Shown: piece by piece, positions 29,442-45,727 of the stretch | Layout of the letters: each line of letters begins with the position of its first letter | Position numbering within the stretch: the stretch's first letter is position 1 | NCBI GenBank assembly: GCA_020881915.1 | Contig: JAJFPB010000003.1 | Location: 3,224,001 to 3,288,000, forward strand | From: Paramyrothecium sp. XJ0827 | Taxonomy: Eukaryota; Ascomycota; Sordariomycetes; Hypocreales; Stachybotryaceae | DNA length: 64,000 nucleotides | Reading direction: 5' to 3' | Translations under genes and position numbers: made by a program | Notes under the pieces: model-generated | Seen by the model: only the letters and a program-made list of their open reading frames with translations | The model's database searches: none | Told to the model about the DNA's origin: nothing

Positions 29442-32400
29442 TCACGACCGCTTGGAGCCCTTGCCGCCTCTGCCGCCCTTGCCCTGGCCCTTGCCACGTC
29501 CCTTGCCGTCGCCGCCGCCTCCGCCGCCGCCCGCGGTGCCGCCGGCCATCATGACCCTCACCTTGCCGACGGGCACGCTGTTGACGACCTCCTCGGGCTT
29601 CAGCGCCTTGAGCAGCTCCACCTCGCGCGGCCACATCCTCTCCGCGTCCCTGGCGCCGTCGTCGACGACGCCCTTCTTGGCCGACGCCGCCTTGGTCCTC
29701 TCCAGGATCTCCTTGACGGCCTTGCCCTTCTTGGTGGCGCCGGGCTGCAGCTTCACCTTGTACTTGAAGCGGCCGAGGGCGTTCCACGGCGCGCACACGG
29801 GGATCACCTCGAGGATCTCGTCGCCGGGGAGGGGCGTGCCGACGAGGGCGTCGAGGGCCGTCGCCTGCTCCGCCTCGTCGTTGTCGAGCACGTCGACGCC
29901 CTCGTCCATCATGACGCGGCGCACCTCCTCGTGCTCCGCCGTCTGCCGCTGCTGCCGCTGGTGCTGCGCTCGCCGGCGCTCCTTGGCGGCGGCCAGCTCG
30001 GCCTCGCGCTCTGCCTTGGCCCTGGCTTCCGCTTCGGCTCGCTGCTTGCCCCGGTTGGCTCCGATGAGGGCCTCGGCGGCAGCCCGGTCCTCCTCGTCCT
30101 GCTCCTTGTACTTGTTGGCAATCTTCTTGGCCTTCCCCTTTTGTCCTCGCTTCGTGGCCTTTGGTCGTGCTGCCACCGAAGGTGTGTTTGTGGTCGAGCC
30201 AGCACCCGAGGGCTTTGCTGAGGCTTCGGAAACGCCCACGGTGGACTGCACCGCATCAGAGTCCCCTTCCTTGTCTTCATTGTCCTTCCCTGAGCTGTCT
30301 TCCTCCTGGGCGTCGTCCTTGATGGCAAGGGCTTTTTCAGACTTCTCGGCGAGAGCTTCATCGACCTCATCTCCATCTGAATCCTCTTCAACGTTCGCAT
30401 TTGGTTGGAGTGGGTTGTCTCGGGCCCTTTCTTCTGGCTGGTCATCATCCTCCGATTCGGACTGGTCGTTCTCTTGAGCATCAGGATCCTCCTGCGTCTC
30501 ATTGAAGGCATCGTCTTCATCAGCATTAGATCTTGTGGCTTCTGCGTCTTCTTGTTCTTCGGTTTGACCCAGCTCGGGGGTGGCCCCTGAGGCTCCGTCG
30601 TATAATCGATGCTTGACATGCTTCGCTTTACTTTCCTCGCTGATTCGGAACATGAAGCCCAGTCCTAGTAGAAGTGGAGCTGGGGGCAGAAAGTTCTTCT
30701 TCCCACGTACCATGAAGCTTCCACTAGGTAAGAACTCACCCGTTGGTGCCGATTTGGATACCTGGTCCGCATTTACCCACCATGCTCCCATGCCCGCTTT
30801 AGAATCCCAGGCGCTCGAGGAACAGACGGAAAGGGACCCAGCCTGAGCCAAAGTAGACGGCGGAATTGGGGCATCTGGCGTTTTGGGGTTGTTTTTAATA
30901 ATGACAGATGACGCACCATGCAGATCGGCATGGCAGTACACGTCGCCTTTTCGCAGATACCTCTTATAAAGAATCTCATTTTGCGGAGCATCCTTCCCTC
31001 CCAGTACGAGATACCCATCTGAGGAGATGAACCACATGAACTTCTCGAACCACATCTGCCTACGGATTGGCTGCAGAAGTGCCTTCTCTTGCTTCAAGCC
31101 TTTTTTCAGGTCTTCGCTTATTTTCTGTTCCGCGTTCTTCAGGGCTCTCACGGCTTGCATTTGTGTCTTTTCGGTTTTGACAGCTGCCGACCGTTTTTGC
31201 TCGTAATACTCCCGTGCGTTGCCCCACGGGCTTAGTCCCAGGTTGATATCGACAGTGAGCCCACTCTCAGGAGTATTGCCCTTCTTCTCGTCTGCTTCGG
31301 AGCCATCATTTTCAGCCTCGCTTTCGTCGGTCTCGTAAGGGTCGTCTTGTTCCTCTTCCTCTGCTTCTTCTTCAGCAAGAGTAAGTGTAATAATGTTCTC
31401 GGCCAAGTTGAGGGGAAGCTTGATGGTCTGAGCAACAGGATTCTGCCGCTTCTTCTCGCGCTCGACCAGTTTGCCAATGTCGATCCAATCCATCCCCTGT
31501 GCAATAAGACCATTGACAGCATTCATCGCTTCTTGGACGCGTTCGACATTTGCTTCGATAGCCGCAGCTTTTCGTGAATTCAATGTCTGGACTTCCTGAA
31601 GCCCCTCGAGTCTCTTGGCTTGATCTTGTTTGGCTGCCTCGAGTTTCTTCTTCGCTGCTGCTTCCCTTTCGTTAAGTCGCGACTCAAGTTTCTGGCCCTC
31701 TAATGAGGAAAAGAATTCATCCACCGTCTTATTGTATCCTTGAAATTCGAGGACCTCCAAAGAGGGGTCCTTCTGCAGCTTGGCGGGAAGAAAAGGATGG
31801 AAGTCCTCGTACAAAAGATCATTCCGATTCGAGGTTTCGTCACTCTCAGATCGTTCGGCGGAGCTTGCCGGTTTCCGCTTGGCGAATATGTAGCCAGTGC
31901 AAACTGCCGTGGAAGTAATATCGTCTACGATTTTCCGAGCCTCGACGAGAGCTTTGACGAGATCATCCAGAAGTGATTCATTCTGCAGAATCTCGGCGGG
32001 CTTAATCGTGGCATCGAAGTTGCTTGTTTGCAGAGCATGATCCACTACGACAGGAGGAAGCTCGGTGATAGAGACGGCCAGACTCTTGCGCAGGTCGCCC
32101 CCTGGCTTCCCTTTCATCTTTTTGGTGGAAGTTTCGTTTGCGGCAGCCTTTGCAACCGCCGTGGTAAGAGCATCTTTAACCCTGTCCAGCGTCAAAGCCG
32201 GAACACCGCCAAAGTTTTGCCTGTTCTCAAGCGAGTATTGAAGGCCGACTCTTTGTGGCTCCTGCGCTTCTCCCTCAGAAACATTGCGCGCAATGGTCAA
32301 AATCTTCAGTTCGGCATCGGTGAGGATTATGTTACCGCTCTGCCATTACTGAGTCAGCGACAGGCTCTCGCACAAGGCGGTGGACAGGACGTAGTAACAT

Positions 32401-32828: not shown

Positions 32829-34900
32829 CTTCAGAACAATGTCCTTTGCAAGAATGATGTCTAAGACAGCTCCCGGGCTAGGGTTGAGACTTTGATATGG
32901 ACTCGGGCCAGCCCACGGCAAAACGTGGGGCAATCACCACTGATGGTGGGGTTGACTCAGCGTTTTCGCAATGTGACGACATTGTGTCACGTGGAGAGCA
33001 GCGGCTCAGCTTTCCTACCGTAAGGTACCGTACCTAAAATCTTGTAAATTGAGACTGGAGAGGATGTAAACAACCGCCAACCATGAGCAAAGAAGCAGTT
33101 CATGTAGGTTAGGTAAGTTAAGGTAAGGTATGCTATGCTATGCTACGCTATGCAATTTCTTGAACCCGTAGGTTTTCGGCTTGGGTCTAAAAGAACGATT
33201 GAACCACCGATATTGTGAATGACCTGCAAGACAACCGACATAATTTTCCTTGCATCCAGAGATTAGCCAATAGGGAAATGAAGGATTGTTAAGGTAATGG
33301 TATGCGAATCGGTACCAGCGAAGATAAAATACTGTGCCTCGAGCCACACGCAACCGCCTCAACATAGACCCTTAAATTGCTGGACAAGTTGACGAATCAA
33401 TAGCAATGATATAATGGAAGACAGCACAGACCGTCTTACGAGCGAGTCCATCTCCGAGTATGTTGATCATAACAGAACATCGCCTAGTTTCATCCCATTC
33501 TTGACCAGGGTTCCGTCAACCATTTTCAAGGCTTGCTGACACAAATCCACATACTCCTTGGGGCTTTGATTCTGAATCACACTCCCGGCAGTCCAGTGAC
33601 TTCTATTAGTGGCCTTTCTTCATCCGGCTGGCTACTCGCAGCTCTCATCCGACGCGTCCTCCGGAGCCCTAGAACGCGATCCGTGCGCAAGAGACGCGAC
33701 CCTGGAAAGCTTGTGATTGTCACAGCCGGAAACGAGGTTCCAGACCCACACTTGGCGCTGGCGACCAATGACAGCTTGTCGGGCGGATCCAGGAGGGCTA
33801 CGTTGTCACAGCAACAAGGGGGAGGGACCCCGGGCGGCAAGCTTCTTGAGCTGATCAGGGGCTAGCCTGTTACTGTGAATTCGCGGCTTCAGACAAGAGG
33901 TCTCCAGTGAATTGGAGAGATTCAGCAAGGTACAGCCCGAGGGTGAGAATGAGATAGCAAGGTTAGGTCTATGAGAATTGGCCGATTGGGCACTGTTCCC
34001 ATATGACGAGCTAATTGATCTGATTGCACTTTGTGATGGAACTGTGCTCCGGTTGCACACCAAGCCAAAAGCAATTACCAATTCGTGGATACGAGGTGCG
34101 TCAGTCATCAAAGGCGTGAGGAGGGAGCAATTGCTGCATGACGACCTCAGCCAGCCTTTCTCTAGATCGATCCAATGACGGCCGTCCACGGTATCACTCA
34201 ACGTCCAAGTTGCCTCGATGGGGAGGTTGGGACGGGCTTTGACACCCAATTGCCGGTGTTCTTGCATAACCAGCCATCAGTTGTCCAGCCACTATATGCA
34301 TCTACAAAGGATCAGCACTTAGGCGCCGCCCCAGCCTCTTCAATGTCATAGTAGGATGCACGGGGGTTCCAGTAGGGCAGAGTAGCAGTGGTCGCGGCCG
34401 GTCTTGCCTCGCTCTGAGCACCAATTGTCACGCCATGTATGGCGCAAAGTACGCCCGTTGAAGCGCAGAGAGTGCACAACCGTGAGGCTAGCTACCTTAT
34501 GAAGATGGGTTAGGCAACCAGCTTCTTCACCACCCAATTCGACCTGACGGCATTGACATGACAGGATACGGGGACCTCGGCTCATCTCGCCAGTGGAGTG
34601 AGCGAGAGAGGGAGACAGAAAGAAAGATTGGGCACGGCCTTTCCCTCGAATCTTGCCGAGACAAGTCAGTACCTGAAAAGTAAGGTAACGACAGCCATTG
34701 TTGCAGGGCACAGGGAAGGGGGCTGGAATTGGACTGCCCATGGGATCCCGCGGACGGGCTTGATACGCCAATTGGCGCTGACGAGACGCACGATGGTGGC
34801 CGGGGTGGGGCGGCTGCGCAGGCGGCTGCACGCGCTATGCTTCTTTGGTCGCCAATAAACAACAAAGCCCTTGTATTGTACCCGTAAACACAACAGAGTT
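32829..34900. other. Intergenic region, no gene recognised
   Basis: Contains the RQC2 promoter on the left. The segment 33010-33155 carries CCGTAAGGTACCGTACCT and GGTTAGGTAAG words followed by a TATGC pentamer run. ORFs at 33806-34267 (-) and 34346-34831 (-) have no recognisable family and no supporting introns; I treat them as chance. No RNA gene was identified. Confidence 0.55.
33128..33154 (+). repeat. (TATGC)n pentamer repeat
   Basis: About five units of TATGC/TACGC adjoining AGGTAAGGTA words in the RQC2 upstream region. Probably a simple-sequence expansion. Confidence 0.8.
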
Positions 34901-35324
34901 CTTTGTGCTCACACCCTGCTCTGCTCTGCTTTGGTCTGCTCTGCTCTGCTCAGCAACGGATTGCGTGTGTACTGTGTCCCTCGCTCTCACTCTCTCCCCC
35001 GTCCCGTCCACTGTCCACGCAACCGGCCCCCGGTCCGTTTCCCACGCCCCAAACAATCCTCGGCTCCCCCCAGTCTTCAAAAGCCCAACTCGCGTCTGCC
35101 GCTCGTTCATTCTTCTCCTCTTCTCTTCCCTCTCCCTCCAATTATCACCAACCACATTTCACACTCCCAAACCCCCTCATACCAAGACAAGAAAGAAAAG
35201 ACACAAAGAGGTCCTCGTAGCCTCCGTTCTTTTCTTATCTCTCTTCGACTTTTGTTTCCCGGAACAAAAGCTAGAGGATCCTTCTTGTCTTCCTTTCGTT
35301 GCCTCGCTACGGAAGGTTGTATGA
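34901..35324 (+). promoter_or_regulatory. Pyrimidine-rich leader of HEX1 with TCTGC repeat
   Basis: Strong C/T enrichment on the plus strand over ~400 bases ahead of the HEX1 exons, including a TCTGC/CTGCT tandem run at ~34916-34952. This is typical of highly expressed fungal genes. ATG is absent from ~34845 until 35320; the ATG at 35320 opens a 15-codon reading frame ending at 35367 that is out of frame with HEX1. This makes the region a plausible ATG-poor 5' leader. Confidence 0.55.
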
Positions 35325-36265
35325 GAAGATTCTCTCGCGCCAGCAAAAGTCGCCAACCTGGACTTTGAAGCCCGCGTCCCCGTGCCCTTCAGCATCTTCC
35401 CATCCACCTATCGGGACAGCGAAGTGCAGACGCAAACCTCTACCCACACTCACGAAGAGCTTGAGATCAAACTCCCCGCCAAGCAGCCAGCCGGACGGGA
35501 AGGTCAATACTCTTCTTCTTCCTACGCCGCCAACGCTGAGCTTCCTCCCCGCAAGGAATACCGGGAAGAAGAGGTCCGCATTACGCGTGAAGAAGAACAT
35601 TACCGCCGTCCCGGTTCCCAGTACGAGCACCACGAGCACCACCACATCCACGCCGAACACCGGTAAGTCATTGAACATTTCCTGCTCTGCGAGCAAATGT
35701 CTGCCCAATTGGGCTCTGGCGAGCTCGCGAAACCCTCCTGCCTCCAAAATCGCCCAGCGGTTGCGCTTCAATGGCTTGGAATTTCTCCCAGCCGATTCGC
35801 GGCGCTGGCGATTTCCTTCCCCGTTTACCCCTGGATAATCTGCCAGCAGACCCCTGCTCCGGCTCAGGGGTGCAGGGACCCCAGCTCCATATTCGCGTTG
35901 ACCCAGAAACACGAAAAGCAAAAGGTCGGTCAGCTTGCTAACATTGTTTTCTCCCCAGGCCTGCTGCTGCTCCTGCCACTCAGTACCACGACACTCACAT
36001 CGACATCGACGTTCACCCTCACCCCCAGCCCTACTCAAGCCCCATTGACGTCGCTGAGCGTGAATACCGAGAGCGTTTCCGCCCTACCTACAACACAACC
36101 GTAGACGCCGCCGCCCCTCAGCCTCAGTACCGGGCCGAGACCACCTACGCCAACGAGTTCACCGTTGACGCTTCCATCCCTCGCTCTGCTGCCCAGGGCG
36201 AAGTAAGAATCTCCGAGGAGACTGTTGAGCCCGCTCGCTACACGCGCGCCGACCAGAAATCCAAG
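35325..36265 (+). other. ATG-less in-frame N-terminal extension of HEX1 (possible long isoform)
   Basis: The frame that joins HEX1 is open from just after a TGA at 35322-35324 through exon A (to 35662). A good intron follows (35663-35958, GTAAGT...CCCCAG), then exon B (35959 onward), which runs into the HEX1 ATG without a stop. The encoded sequence is protein-like: FEARVPVPFSIFPSTYRD, then charged EELEIKLP, EYREEEVRITREEEHY and His-rich segments, then ETTYANEFTVDASIPRS. No ATG lies in either exon. The best visible start is CTG 35358 (A at -3, G at +4); GTG 35382 has a poorer context. Longer HEX1 forms through alternative splicing are known in some fungi. Alternatives are an unseen upstream ATG exon or an untranslated leader. 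Confidence 0.55.
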
Positions 36266-36956
36266 ATGGGTTACTACGACGAGGACGGTACGTTGTCGAG
36301 CTTCCCTTCACCATGCGTGCCACATACTAATTTGGTGATCAACAGGTCACTACCACTCCTTCCGCCAGGGTGTTCACAAGCTCGCTGACAAGATCACCAA
36401 CCCCCGCGGCTATGAGACTCACGTCGACATCGACATCCACCGCGAGAAGGCCCCTGCTCCCGGCCCTGCTCCCCGTGGCCCCGTCAGCGGTGGCTCCGGT
36501 GCCGGCTATGTCCCCAACACCGTCACCATTCCCTGCCACCACATCCGCCTCGGTGACTTCCTGATCCTCCAGGGCCGTCCCTGCCAGGTCATCCGCATCT
36601 CCACCTCGTCTGCCACCGGCCAGTACCGCTACCTCGGTGTCGACCTCTTCACCAAGCAGCTGCACGAGGAGTCCTCCTTCATCTCCAACCCTGCCCCCAG
36701 CGTTGTTGTCCAGACCATGCTCGGCCCCATCTTCAAGCAGTACCGCGTCCTTGACATGCAGGACGGCTACGTCGTCGCCATGACCGAGACCGGTGACGTC
36801 AAGCCCAACCTGACCGTCATTGACCAGTCCAACCTCTGGTCTCGTCTGTCCAACGCCTTCGAGTCCGGCCGCGGCAGCGTCCGCATCCTGGTCCTGAACG
36901 ACCAGGGCCGCGAGCTCGCCGTTGACATGAAGGTCATCCACGGCTCCCGCCTGTAG
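36266..36956 (+). CDS. hex1: Woronin body major protein HEX1
   Basis: Model from the conserved start MGYYDED: exon 36266-36287, intron 36288-36345 (GTACGT...AACAG), exon 36346-36956, 210 residues. From ~65 the protein follows the HEX1/eIF5A-like fold: TIPCHHIRLGDFLILQGRPCQVIRIS, QYRYLGVDLFTKQLHEE, SVVVQTMLGP, then RILVLNDQGRELAVDMKV. It ends in SRL, a type 1 peroxisomal targeting signal. HEX1 self-assembles into the dense core of Woronin bodies, which plug septal pores after wounding; it is restricted to Pezizomycotina. Highly biased, C-ending codons in the last exon suggest strong expression. An in-frame upstream extension without ATG is listed separately; if used, it would give a protein of ~415 residues from CTG 35358. 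Confidence 0.95.
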
Positions 36957-37904
36957 ACGGCGTTCGTTCTCTTTTCATTAGGAAATGAGTCCGCCTGTTG
37001 AGCAAATCCCCCTTTGACAAGCCGAGAGCAACGACGATCCTCCAAGCCATCCGATACGCAGGCTAGAGTTACCTTGTCGTCTGTGCAACCACTCACACTG
37101 TCATTGGGTTTTCGTGTAAATCAGCGGTCACATGGGTTCGGTTAAGATTGGACACAGTACAATTTTTGTGGGTCTTGATTCAATAGGAATGTTCTTGTAT
37201 ATCGAATATAATGCGAGAGCAATCTTTGCCTCATAAGTAAACCCTGTCAGTCTTGTACAGTAAACTCGCCTTGCGTGATAGCAGCCGTGCATGTTCTCAC
37301 TGTGAAGCGGCGCGTACGTGCGGTCATTGGCCATGTATGACCCTCGATGAAAGCCATCCGGGTCCTCAAGGCGCAGCACCTGAGATAAACGCGGCTTTGC
37401 ATAATCAGGAAACTCAGAGGTTCTGCCGGTCCTACCGAAGCTGAGACGAGAGCCAGAACAATTCCATTTCTTTTGGTAGTTGACTACGAAGCTGGATGGG
37501 GTTCTGGAGTGAAAAGGAAGAAGGAGGGGGGCTGGGATACTTGAGGGAGAACCACCTTATCATCAGTAGCAAACGCGCAAGCCGATATAGACATAGTCTA
37601 CTCGTTGTTACAGAAGTTCCGCCAAAGTTGGGGCAGAGGAGGGGTCCTGGAGGACAAGGTAAGACGGGCCTCGGGCCCCCTGGTGTGACTGATAAGGGAA
37701 TCATGTGCCACACGCACGCGATCAAAGGTGCCATCTCTGAACTTACTTTTACTTTGTCCTATTTGATCCCGCCTTGCTGTCGCTCTTCACTTGCATTTAT
37801 AATAACCCAGCGAGCGACAGTTCTTTCGCAGCCTGGCAGGTTTCGATTACATCCTCCATCCGCCCTCACCAGTCCTTGCTCTACGTCTACTACCCTAGAC
37901 CACG
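36957..37904. other. Intergenic region between hex1 and bleomycin hydrolase genes
   Basis: HEX1 3' flank and the promoter of the bleomycin hydrolase gene. No credible ORF or RNA gene. C/T-rich sequence close to 37840-37900 probably represents the leader of the next gene. Confidence 0.55.
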
Positions 37905-39489
37905 ATGGGTGGGAATCAGTCCAAGCCAGAGCTGGCGGCGGCAGCGCATGAGAAGGCGGTCCTAAGCCGTATCCAGGACTTGTCGCTGGATAAGCAGCAG
38001 CAAGAAGAGAGCAGCGTCTACGGCGATGAGAAGACCTCTGTTGGGCAGCTGCTTCGCGAGCCTGAGGGTTTGCCCGTTCATACATTGGAGTCGTGGCAGT
38101 CTGCCATCCTCCGAGACCCCAAGAACAAGTAAGCGGCTGGCATCTCGGAGCTCGTTCATGTGGAAAGCTAACCCAAGACACTACAGACTCGCCCTAACGG
38201 CACTTGGTACTGCGAACCCAAGAGACGTACTCACCTCACTGCCTGCTGTGATTGCCGATAAGCAGATCTTCAACGTCAAGATACCCTTCGAAGGTGGCCC
38301 CATCACCAACCAGCGCTCAAGCGGCCGTTGCTGGCTCTTTGCTTCCACCAATGTTTTCCGTGTCGCCCTCATGAAACGCTACGGACTGGAGAGCTTCGAG
38401 CTTTCGCAGGCCTACCTGTTCTTCTGGGACAAGCTGGAAAAATCCAACTGGTTCCTGGAACAGATCATCGATACTGCTGGCGAAGACATCGATGGACGAC
38501 TCGTCCAGGCGCTGCTCGGTGACATCGTGTCCGACGGCGGCCAATGGGACATGGTATTTAATCTCGTGGAGAAGTATGGCCTAGTTCCCCAAGCGCTTTA
38601 CCCAGATAGCTGGAGCGCCATGAACTCGGGTGTCCTCAACAGCATTGTCAAGACCAAGCTCCGCGAGTATGCCATCAAGCTGCGAGGCTTGTGCCGCTCC
38701 AAGAACGGCGTCTCGACCACTGCTCTTTCGGCAGCCAAGGACAAGATGCTGCAGGAAATCACACTCATCTTGACCCTCCTCCTTGGCCCGCCTCCAAGCC
38801 CGGACAATGAATTCACATGGCAATACTTGGACAAGGATGGAAAGGCTCACCAGCTTACAACCACACCAAAGAGTTTTGCGAAGGACATCTCGAGCTCCGA
38901 CTTCAAGGTCAGCTCGGCCGTGATTGCGGGCATGATCTCCCTTGTGCACGATCCTCGCCATGACCCGATGACACTCTTGACAGTGTCCCGGCTTGGCAAT
39001 ATCGTCGGTGGGCGCGGCATCAGCTACGTCAACGTCGAGATGGACACTCTCAAGTCTGTGTGCATCAAGATGTTGAAGGCCGGCCTGCCCATCTTCTTTG
39101 GCAGCGACGTTGGCAAGTTCAGCGACAGTGTTTCGGGCATCATGGATCTGGAACTCTTCGACTACGCGCTCGGCTTCAACACCAGTCTGCTTGGCATGTC
39201 CAAAGCGGAGCGCCTGACAACAGGCGAGTCACAGATGACCCACGCCATGGTCCTCACGGCGGTGCACATCGACGAGAAGACGGGGTCGCCGGTGCGTTGG
39301 AGGGTGCAGAATAGCTGGGGCACCAGCAGAGGAGACAAGGGCTGGTTTGTCGCCAGCGACCGTTGGTTCGACGAGTTTGTCTACCAAGCAGTGGTCGACC
39401 CCAAATTCTGCAGCAAGGCAGTGACAGATGTCTTGAAACAGGAACCGACCGTCCTGCCCCTTTGGGATCCCATGGGCTCCCTGGCCTGA
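37905..39489 (+). CDS. blh1: Bleomycin hydrolase family cysteine peptidase (C1B)
   Basis: Model: exon 1 37905-38128, intron 38129-38186 (GTAAGC...CTACAG with GCTAACC branch), exon 2 38187-39489, 508 residues. Catalytic features: Gln117 (oxyanion) and Cys123 in NQRSSGRCWLF, His427 in THAMVLTAV, and Asn450 in VQNSWG. The C-terminus ends DPMGSLA, like the conserved tail that occupies the active-site cleft in this family and gives aminopeptidase or carboxypeptidase-like trimming. The enzyme forms a hexameric, proteasome-like barrel in the cytosol and degrades small peptides and homocysteine thiolactone. The ~70-residue N-terminus (MGGNQSKPE) starts with MGG, reminiscent of an N-myristoylation site; that is inference. 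Length is usual for the fungal family. Confidence 0.94.
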
Positions 39490-43122: not shown

Positions 43123-45727
43123 ATGACAGACAGATACCGCGGGTATGCCCCCGTTGGTCGGTCGGCTACCTTCAACCCGGCAAGGGCTTCTATGCCCAAC
43201 GGCATTGGATACAGCTCGCTTTATGCCGGTGATACGCATATTTTGCCTTCCTCGTCCTCTGCATCCTCGTCGAGGCAACAAATGACTACTCCGAGAGCCT
43301 ACTGGACTACGACGACAGCCAGTGGTGGCCCATCGACGACCAGAACCTATGCTGTCACCCATGATCCCCGATCAAGGCATGGGGCCCGTGAGCAAAGTCG
43401 TACGCGGCGATCTACCCTCGACTCCGCTCCCCGTCCTCCAGTCATTGTCACCACCACGCAAAAGGACCGCCCTCATGCCGCCGCTTCTTCCTCACATTCC
43501 ACCACTGCCCGCGCCGGAAGCCCAGTCCGTGATGATTATCGCTCGAGCGACGGACACCTTTACACTCAGCCTGCCTCGTCCATTCGATCTCGCAGTGCTG
43601 TTCGCTCCTACAATGCGACAGCAGATGACGAAGACTACGCTCGTCTTCGAGAGCGTGGTGATAGTTTGATGGCGGCTGACGCTTATCGCCACTCTCGGCC
43701 GTCTGTCCTATACCCGAGCGACGCGAGGGAAAGCAGACACACTCCTGCTGCCGTCGAATTCGGCGACGATGGTTACCAGTATACGAATGCTGGAGAGCTG
43801 CTCAAGTATGATTTAGATCATTCCAGACCAGCTCGATCAAGGAGACGCGAGAGCTTGGACAGGGGCTACTATCGTCCCAACGTAAACTATAACGCTGATC
43901 AGCGTAGTCTCAATGTCAATACCAGCCAGGATCTCAGCCGTAACTATAACATGAATACAAGCCGACCCTACGAAGGCGGCCGTGGCGGCCCGCCACCGTC
44001 TACTCGTGGTTTCGACAAGATTAACCGAGCCTACGATGCACCCCGAGACCTACCACCTGCAGCCCCCGCCCCTCCAGCCCCTTCAAACACAGCCCAAGCA
44101 GATACGTTGGGGTCCGCTGTGGACCGTTACGACAGTCGACGCACTAGGCCTGTGTCTCTCTACCAGGAGAGCCCGCCTAGGCCATCACATCATGAGGATT
44201 ACTATCGCACTCGTGAAGATGAGCGCAATCTGCGGGAGCTTCGGGACCGTGACCGCGAGTCTGAGCGAACCTATGACGCCTCACAGCAGTTCCGTGACGA
44301 TAACGTAATGACGCGTGGCTTTGGGATCCGAGCAGATCTTCTTGATCGAGATGATGGTCGAGACCGGCGGCGAGACGTTCGACGAGATGATCCGAAGGAA
44401 CTCTCCGATGGTTTAAGCCTTCCACGCCCAGCGGATGCGGATCGTGATGATCGGAGAGGGGCACGGCTAGAGCCCAAAGACGAGCGCCGGGAAAGACGTG
44501 AGAGCAGGAGAGGTAGCGAAGAGGATGAGAAGGAACGGACACGCTTCAGGGATAAGGTGGCGTCGGGTCTCGGTGTCGCTGCAGCAGCAGTTGGACTTGC
44601 ACCTCTTGCGAAGGATGCCGATAAGGAAGATAAAGAATCACCTAGACGTCGCCGAAGCCCTGAAGAAGACAAAAACCGTCGCAAAGATATCGTTGATGAT
44701 GTCGACAGGTCGAAAATCGGGGAACGGGGAAAGGATAGAGCCAGTCCCCGAGACGACACTGACCTTCGAGATCGACATAGAAGGGATGCTGAAGCGAGGC
44801 TTGCAGGTGAAGCCGTAGCATCGGCTTCGGACTCGGACGAAGGAAGACGACAAGGGAGACGGCACCGAGCGTCGAATTCTTTCAACCCTAATGATCCCGG
44901 TGACCTCAAGCAACTCCAGGAGGAGCTTGCGACTCTCAACGCATCAGAAAAAGGCAAAGAGAGGGAGGTGGTGGCTGCTGAAGACATGAGGAAATCCCGT
45001 TCCTCCTCTTTAACGCGGGGATACAGGCCTTCAGAGTCCCCCAAGGATGAAGTACGTGGGCGTCAGCCAGGAGGATCAGCCTCGGAAGACAAGCAAGTTC
45101 GTCTCGTGTCCCCACCGCGTGACAAGAGCCGCGAAAAGCCCCTCAAGGGCATTTTGAAACAACCCAAGGTCAGCTTCCCGGAGGAACCAAACCCTATTCG
45201 AGAGGGGGTCGCTCCCCACAAGGAGGACAAAAAGGTTAAAGAGGCGCCACCGGGCGCAAAATGGACCAAGATTAGTCGCAAGGTCGTGAATCCGGAAGCC
45301 TTGACTATCGGGAAAGAAAGATTCGAGGTGAGGGATGACTTTGTCATCGTGCTTCGAGTATTAAGCAAGGAGGAGATCCAAGCTTACGCTTCCGCCACGC
45401 AGGTGTTGCGAGGTAGGCTTGTTCCTTTTTAGACTATTTGGCCTCAAGCTAACAGAAAATTCAGAGCGCAGACGCAACGGAGAGGACGGGCACAAGAGTC
45501 GCGAGCGAGACCAGGATCGTGATGAGGATCGTGACTACGATGATGAGGATGGACGAAGACACCAACGTCACCATCGACACAAGGATGAAGATGACGGCGA
45601 TGCAGCTGATCGCGAGCAAGATCGCGACAGACGCAGGCGCTATAGGAGGGATGATGATGATGAATATGACTCACGGTCACGAGAGGCAGACCACCACCAT
45701 CATCATCATCGGTCTCACAGAGACTAA
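43123..45727 (+). CDS. DUF8035-containing disordered fungal protein
   Basis: Model: exon 1 43123-45412, intron 45413-45464 (GTAGGC...TTCAG with GCTAACA branch), exon 2 45465-45727, 850 residues. Nearly the whole chain is low-complexity, rich in Arg, Asp, Ser and Tyr, with many RDR/DRD and SRR segments. The one conserved patch is near residues 705-765: GAKWTKISRKVVNPEAL, ERFEVRDDFVIVLRVLSKEEIQ. I associate this with the fungal DUF8035 domain. Downstream, exon 2 encodes a charged tail with a long His run and ends RSHRD. A short hydrophobic patch (GLGVAAAAVGLAPLA, ~484-498) sits in the middle. Function is unknown; the composition suggests an RNA- or membrane-associated scaffold, but that is only inference. 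Confidence 0.85.

Follow-up and report, generated by a model that had tools for sequence, protein, structure and literature searches.

The HEX1 gene in the analysed stretch of Paramyrothecium sp. XJ0827 (64,000 nucleotides of contig JAJFPB010000003.1; hereafter, the window) probably makes a second protein, twice as long as the canonical one, that begins at a CUG codon, and this arrangement has probably been kept in related fungi. HEX1 forms the crystals that moulds use to seal wounded cells, and work on it has treated it as the sole protein of the Woronin-body crystal. Here, one HEX1 mRNA is likely to carry two in-frame starts: CUG 35358, leading to a product of 414 amino acids, and AUG 36266, leading to one of 210 amino acids. 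Such dual-start production of a short and a long HEX1 had been put forward in the original prediction, and it gains support from the conservation of the encoded sequence.

The canonical gene lies on the plus strand, as do all features of the locus described below, and runs from ATG 36266 to a stop codon at 36954-36956, encoding 210 residues that end in SRL. Its first coding exon (36266-36287, MGYYDED) opens with an AUG that has A at -3 and G at +4, and is followed directly by a 58-nt intron (36288-36345); the remaining exon (36346-36956) encodes the IF5A-like domains, with SRL at 36945-36953. In a search of solved structures, the core matched Hex1 structures with E values down to 1.1e-105, its closest solved relatives being Woronin body major proteins. 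Pfam found only IF5A-like_N and eIF-5a on the long form, both within the core. The two-domain eIF5A-like core that marks HEX1, the Woronin body major protein, is thereby present, as is a PTS1 (SRL) at the C-terminus. By similarity to 1khi and other structures, the core would self-assemble into a lattice. Elsewhere in the window, the next gene downstream of HEX1 is a Peptidase C1-like open frame of 487 residues (38026-39489, plus strand; PF03051, E 6e-146), and two further open frames encode 891 residues with NFACT-R and NFACT-C domains (29442-32117, minus strand) and 769 residues without a Pfam match at E<=0.001 (43123-45432, plus strand).

Upstream of the canonical start, the HEX1 frame is open at 35325-35662 and 35959-36265, as originally described, and is bounded by an in-frame TGA at 35322-35324. 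The two open parts are joined across a 296-nt GT-AG intron (35663-35958, GTAAGT...CCCCAG) in phase 2, which matches both exons, and the intron itself holds ATGs at 35697 and 35771 together with an in-frame stop. Protein P0002 crosses the corresponding junction (EYR|PAAA) without intron sequence. The extension is shorter than the roughly 300 codons first claimed, amounting to 215 codons from 35325 and 204 from CTG 35358; counted from this CTG, it consists of a first exon at 35358-35662 and a second at 35959-36265, the latter with three TV[DE] repeats at 36098-36265. A donor-like GTAAGA at 36203 in the second extension exon was considered and rejected, as joining it to 36346 breaks the HEX1 frame. 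Neither extension exon contains an ATG in any frame, just as had been stated, and the leader from about 34845 to the HEX1 start, intron excluded, has a single one. This lone ATG had been called correctly as out of frame and followed by a stop after 15 codons, but it lies at 35321 rather than at 35320. It opens a uORF (35321-35368, MRRFSRASKSRQPGL) that overlaps the CTG, and its context is weak (T at -3, A at +4). The overlapping uORF may itself be conserved. The start of its peptide, MRRFSRASKS, resembles MRRFSCARKS, the start of the Ophiocordyceps australis model P0076.

An open leader free of ATGs had been regarded as unlikely by chance. When the 612-nt stretch was simulated 20,000 times with a first-order Markov model, 4.3% of the sequences were ATG-free, 0.67% were open and 0.035% were both, which taken alone is modest evidence. 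It is the comparison with other species that shows the open, ATG-free frame to exceed chance. Codon usage was scored as log-odds trained on ten window ORFs (a crude training set, perhaps with some antisense frames among them) and came to 0.236 per codon in the extension frame versus -0.091 and -0.527 in the other two, with 0.22 for the HEX1 core and negative values in all three frames of the 300 nt before the extension.

The extension is conserved as a protein. With the joined long form as query, 998 proteins among 7,996 scored candidates matched at E<=0.001 with the extension aligned, the best 120 of these 998 being those listed; among the matches listed, the nearest relative is Paramyrothecium foliicola (Sordariomycetes, Hypocreales, Stachybotryaceae), which is 92% identical. 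The extension alone retrieved 54 more proteins, and a Leotiomycete-type extension retrieved 79, partly overlapping the others, with Cadophora (Leotiomycetes) at the top. The named sources of proteins bearing the conserved N-terminal block described below belong to the Sordariomycetes and Leotiomycetes, where the classes and orders of relatives other than P. foliicola and Cadophora are those we take the printed names to imply. In 13 relatives compared with the window, identity was 50.5-93.1% in the extension, 42.9-92.2% in the variable first part of canonical HEX1 and 82.2-97.3% in the core. Frame-breaking indels in relatives, which had been named as evidence that would speak against the prediction, were not found inside the extension at the protein level, and frame shifts occur only upstream of the CTG. 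There, the sequence RRFSRASKS, which the window carries in the uORF frame, stands in the HEX1 frame in P0004, P0027, P0125 and P0158, while the HEX1 frame of the window reads DSLAPAK at that place; a DSLAP-like pattern is in frame in twelve proteins, of which P0089 looks unrelated. Judged from these sequences, the frame upstream of the block is not kept between species. One metagenomic relative of the extension, P0155, ends in MPLYDDVGK instead of MGYYDEDG.

The proposed start of the long form, CTG 35358-35360 (gccaacCTGg), has A at -3 and G at +4, as originally reported. Eighteen in-frame near-cognate codons are listed, of which it is the first past the stop at 35322 and the only one with both bases, so that the extension opens with a near-cognate codon in strong context. 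It is followed by the conserved N-terminal block of the long form (DFEARVPVPFSIFPSTYR, 35361-35414). It is at the leucine of this CTG, the very codon named earlier, that conservation abruptly sets in. In an alignment of 107 anchored sequences including the window (14 of 121 had no anchor and were left out), the columns from residue 0, the leucine, to +11 have entropies no higher than 0.38 bits; values are intermediate (0.9) at -2 and -3 and rise to 2.99 bits at -4 and 3.3-4.0 bits farther upstream. The block is present in 167 proteins of an enlarged set of 225 (224 database matches plus the window protein); the other 58 begin inside the extension, skip the block, hold later exons only or differ within the block, and P0200 and P0207, which lack the standard block, read RVPIPVS there.

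Around the leucine, the block-bearing proteins also retain what a start codon would need. Residue +1 is D in 167/167, giving G at +4; residue -1 is N in 154, T in 6 and K in 3 of 163, each with a codon beginning with A, which places A at -3 in all of them; and residue -2 is A in 99, V in 57, G in 6 and L in 1 (P0199), which implies G at -6 in 162 of 163, all of these being counts over related, non-independent sequences rather than counts of events. The residues before the leucine thus vary while the implied Kozak bases stay, the pattern that a start context outside the translated region should show. At residue 0, 163 of the 167 have L and 4 have M, where the codon is read as CTG from DNA in the window and as a residue only in the relatives, which may use other leucine codons. 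The four proteins with M are those of Clonostachys rosea (P0018), Cordyceps sp. RAO-2017 (P0024) and Colletotrichum karsti (P0082), which in the database begin M-DFEAR, and the metagenomic P0143. That leucine gives way to methionine but never to isoleucine or valine is consistent with an NTG codon. This M could be a genuine AUG, or a CTG or TTG start displayed as M, and if it is a genuine AUG, leaky scanning would be poor in those four. About ten metagenomic exon-1 frames (P0147-P0161) of the MRPYKAVNL type begin M-R-[PR]-[YHP]-K-A-V-[NK]-L, with M just upstream of the leucine, and P0126 and P0125 likewise have M shortly upstream of it; in the metagenomic frames, this M may reflect GTG or TTG starts chosen by prokaryotic callers or real AUGs. 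For DNA of relatives, a HEX1 core search of genome_contigs gave 29 pattern matches, none confirmed as a relative, and a degenerate DNA pattern for the block had no match in viral_contigs or genome_contigs.

The extension could also start in frame at another near-cognate codon, such as GTG 35382 or ATC 35394, or at several of them. The 18 in-frame candidates leave room for this, and cpc-1 is described as using multiple near-cognate starts in the available text of PMC5487733. However, the residues from the leucine onward are nearly invariant, which would not be needed if they lay upstream of the true start, and the combination of A at -3 and G at +4 is confined to CTG 35358 among the listed codons. 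We therefore consider a different near-cognate start unlikely, and CUG 35358 remains the preferred one.

If AUG 36266 is to be reached from the same leader, AUGs should be scarce before it, and the extension is almost free of methionine. Between the block and the HEX1 AUG, 134 proteins contain 1 Met in 32,028 residues, versus 635 in 26,953 residues downstream of the start Met in the same proteins. The extension is also poor in Leu (1.5%), Cys (0.06%) and Trp (0.02%), but not in Val (7.1%) or Ile (3.6%), so that part of this deficit is a matter of composition. The sole Met belongs to P0119, where the segment around it departs from the two nearest relatives used for comparison and looks mis-spliced. 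Gene finders that begin at an internal ATG could conceal proteins with Met, and two extra sets were therefore counted: 18 transcript-like proteins have 0 Met in 4,124 extension residues versus 74 in 3,221 core residues, and 159 proteins taken from the GREG motif to MGYY have 3 Met in 30,840 residues, of which P0119 has one and P0130, whose sequence seems to run on through an intron, has two. The HEX1 start Met, in turn, is kept in 179/179 proteins reaching the core, with MGYY in 175 and MGYF, MGYD, MGYF and MGFY in the other four. A near Met-free extension combined with a kept start Met agrees with a leader through which ribosomes have to scan before they arrive at the AUG.

A less likely alternative is that the long HEX1 is real but begins at a conventional AUG, supplied by an upstream exon that splicing joins to the frame, an outcome that the original prediction had named as contrary to it. 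Most named database models, among the matches listed, do begin with M far upstream of the block, and the window offers 12 combinations of ATG exon, donor and acceptor (three exons with four acceptors) whose donors match at least 5/6 of the consensus, and 36 at a threshold of at least 4/6. However, the first exons of the models differ between genera, with likeness among several related Fusarium models, and at E<=1 no part of the window matches residues 1-101 of the P. foliicola model. The models P0115, P0033 and P0005 translate a leader that carries stops in the window; by translation, they match the window leader, and part of the leader is therefore similar between species. No exon combination in the window has a perfect donor (ATG from 33400, introns up to 1500 nt), and none with an ATG at or beyond 34400 and a donor at or beyond 34700 reaches a match of at least 5/6; the combinations present are probably chance, because no such exon is conserved. 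Entries P0034, P0072 and P0101, annotated as "partial", begin at KVANL or ANL. In addition, 18 matches from contigs of about 1.4-2.4 kb cross both intron positions uninterrupted, from which we infer that these contigs are cDNA-like and were annotated with prokaryotic gene callers. Seven proteins from transcript-like contigs (P0004, P0091, P0181, P0194, P0195, P0211 and P0212) extend upstream of the block, for example as RKVVEERTLAPFKVANL, and are colinear through the start without a junction. Upstream ATG exons in frame thus exist in most database models, yet they differ between genera and are absent as a junction from the seven transcript-like contigs, and we doubt that an AUG of this kind supplies the start. 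In our reading, the long Hex1 entries have the frame right and the start wrong, and the differing first exons that supply an AUG in many of them are probably false, a systematic annotation problem.

It is very improbable that the conserved leader acts only as RNA or as a regulatory translated leader with a functionless peptide: a structured hexA motif is placed in putative 5' UTRs or introns in the accessible part of PMC5640933, and the leader upstream of the CTG is partly similar between species, but the conserved 3' tail of that motif varies at every third base, as if coding (same source, same part), the extension is conserved at the protein level (50-93% identity in 13 relatives), Rfam, which may or may not include the hexA motif, gave no match at E<=1 in 34000-37500, and a 71-nt fold just past the CTG does not outscore shuffled sequence (z -1.0).

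A CUG-initiated HEX1 has its nearest published mechanism in these fungi in Neurospora cpc-1, for which the available text of PMC5487733 describes a long non-AUG N-terminal extension that is conserved across Pezizomycotina under purifying selection. On the reading proposed here, both genes have a long in-frame extension independent of AUG, together with near-cognate codons that carry A at -3 and G at +4. The cpc-1 extension, however, overlaps regulatory uORFs and has several near-cognate starts according to the same text, whereas that of HEX1 has one sharply bounded codon, and HEX1 differs further in its near Met-free leader and in being a self-assembling structural protein. The words hex and Woronin have 0 occurrences in this text of PMC5487733. 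Two N-terminal HEX1 forms from one gene are also described for Verticillium in the excerpted text of PMC7762394, where an alternative 3' splice site after MGYYDD yields forms of 188 and 209 amino acids; these differ by about 21 residues after MGYYDD, while 204 residues are added before the Met here. The same excerpt places the Verticillium start at MGYYDD and suspects an annotation error in long N-termini. Among 460 Hex1 entries, 123 have 470-534 amino acids and 112 have 405-469, together 235 at 405-534, in the part of PMC7559983 at hand. Long entries of this kind contain an extension like that of the window or have lengths fitting one, and they are annotated from diverse upstream AUG exons; that part of PMC7559983 treats them as length variation or possible misannotation and proposes no non-AUG start. 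The hexA RNA motif, finally, is described in the accessible text of PMC5640933 as a long hairpin that ends at a 3' splice site and is followed by a conserved tail. Like the locus in the window, it is a conserved sequence that precedes Woronin-body genes and has a 3' splice site and a tail that looks coding, a likeness by description only, and the motif is read there as structured RNA whereas the window extension is read here as coding; its coding-like tail is perhaps the same extension in other species. In full-text literature open without subscription, no paper among the matches listed links HEX1 to a non-AUG start, and the available portions of PMC9882315, PMC8171066 and PMC12077801 hold nothing on a non-AUG HEX1 start.

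Under the proposed initiation at both CUG and AUG, ribosomes scanning the leader would mostly bypass the weak uORF AUG at 35321. A fraction of them would initiate at CUG 35358, in its near-ideal context, and produce the 414-residue HEX1, and the others would continue through some 600 nucleotides free of AUG, initiate at the strong AUG 36266 and produce the 210-residue, lattice-forming HEX1. The use of the CUG in cells, the co-production of the two forms and their ratio are inferred. Both products would keep the SRL peroxisomal signal and could co-assemble.

The tail that the long form adds comprises 204 residues, is charged and predicted to be disordered, and consists partly of TV[DE] repeats of about 20 residues, the three in the window being 20-21 residues each. 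An AlphaFold2 model of P0018 (50-sequence alignment) has a mean pLDDT of 54.8; the tail scores about 30-47, apart from one short helix (127-138), and most blocks of the core score 84-92. Fusarium and Leotiomycete relatives (P0119, P0071, P0077, P0194 and others) have more copies of the TVD repeat, and copy number would explain some of the length variation. In adeno-associated virus, VP2 is a minor, N-terminally extended lattice subunit made from a non-AUG codon, and the major subunit is made from a downstream AUG. The scheme of a minor extended and a major subunit is alike, although the proteins are unrelated and co-assembly is an assumption for HEX1. By analogy with such extended minor capsid proteins, the tail would sit on the assembly surface and bind partners, and as a minority multivalent surface on Woronin-body assemblies it might serve nucleation, envelope contact or tethering. 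This role is the most tentative element of the proposal, possible rather than probable.

The Woronin body, regarded as an organelle made of a single protein, may therefore contain two forms of HEX1. Should the long form exist, constructs for complementation or tagging that start from the MGYY AUG miss a conserved form of the protein. A CUG start would also explain why many long Hex1 entries have differing first exons, as gene finders would be seeking an AUG that is absent. If true, HEX1 would be a directly testable example of non-AUG initiation that mixes two types of subunit in a self-assembling structure.
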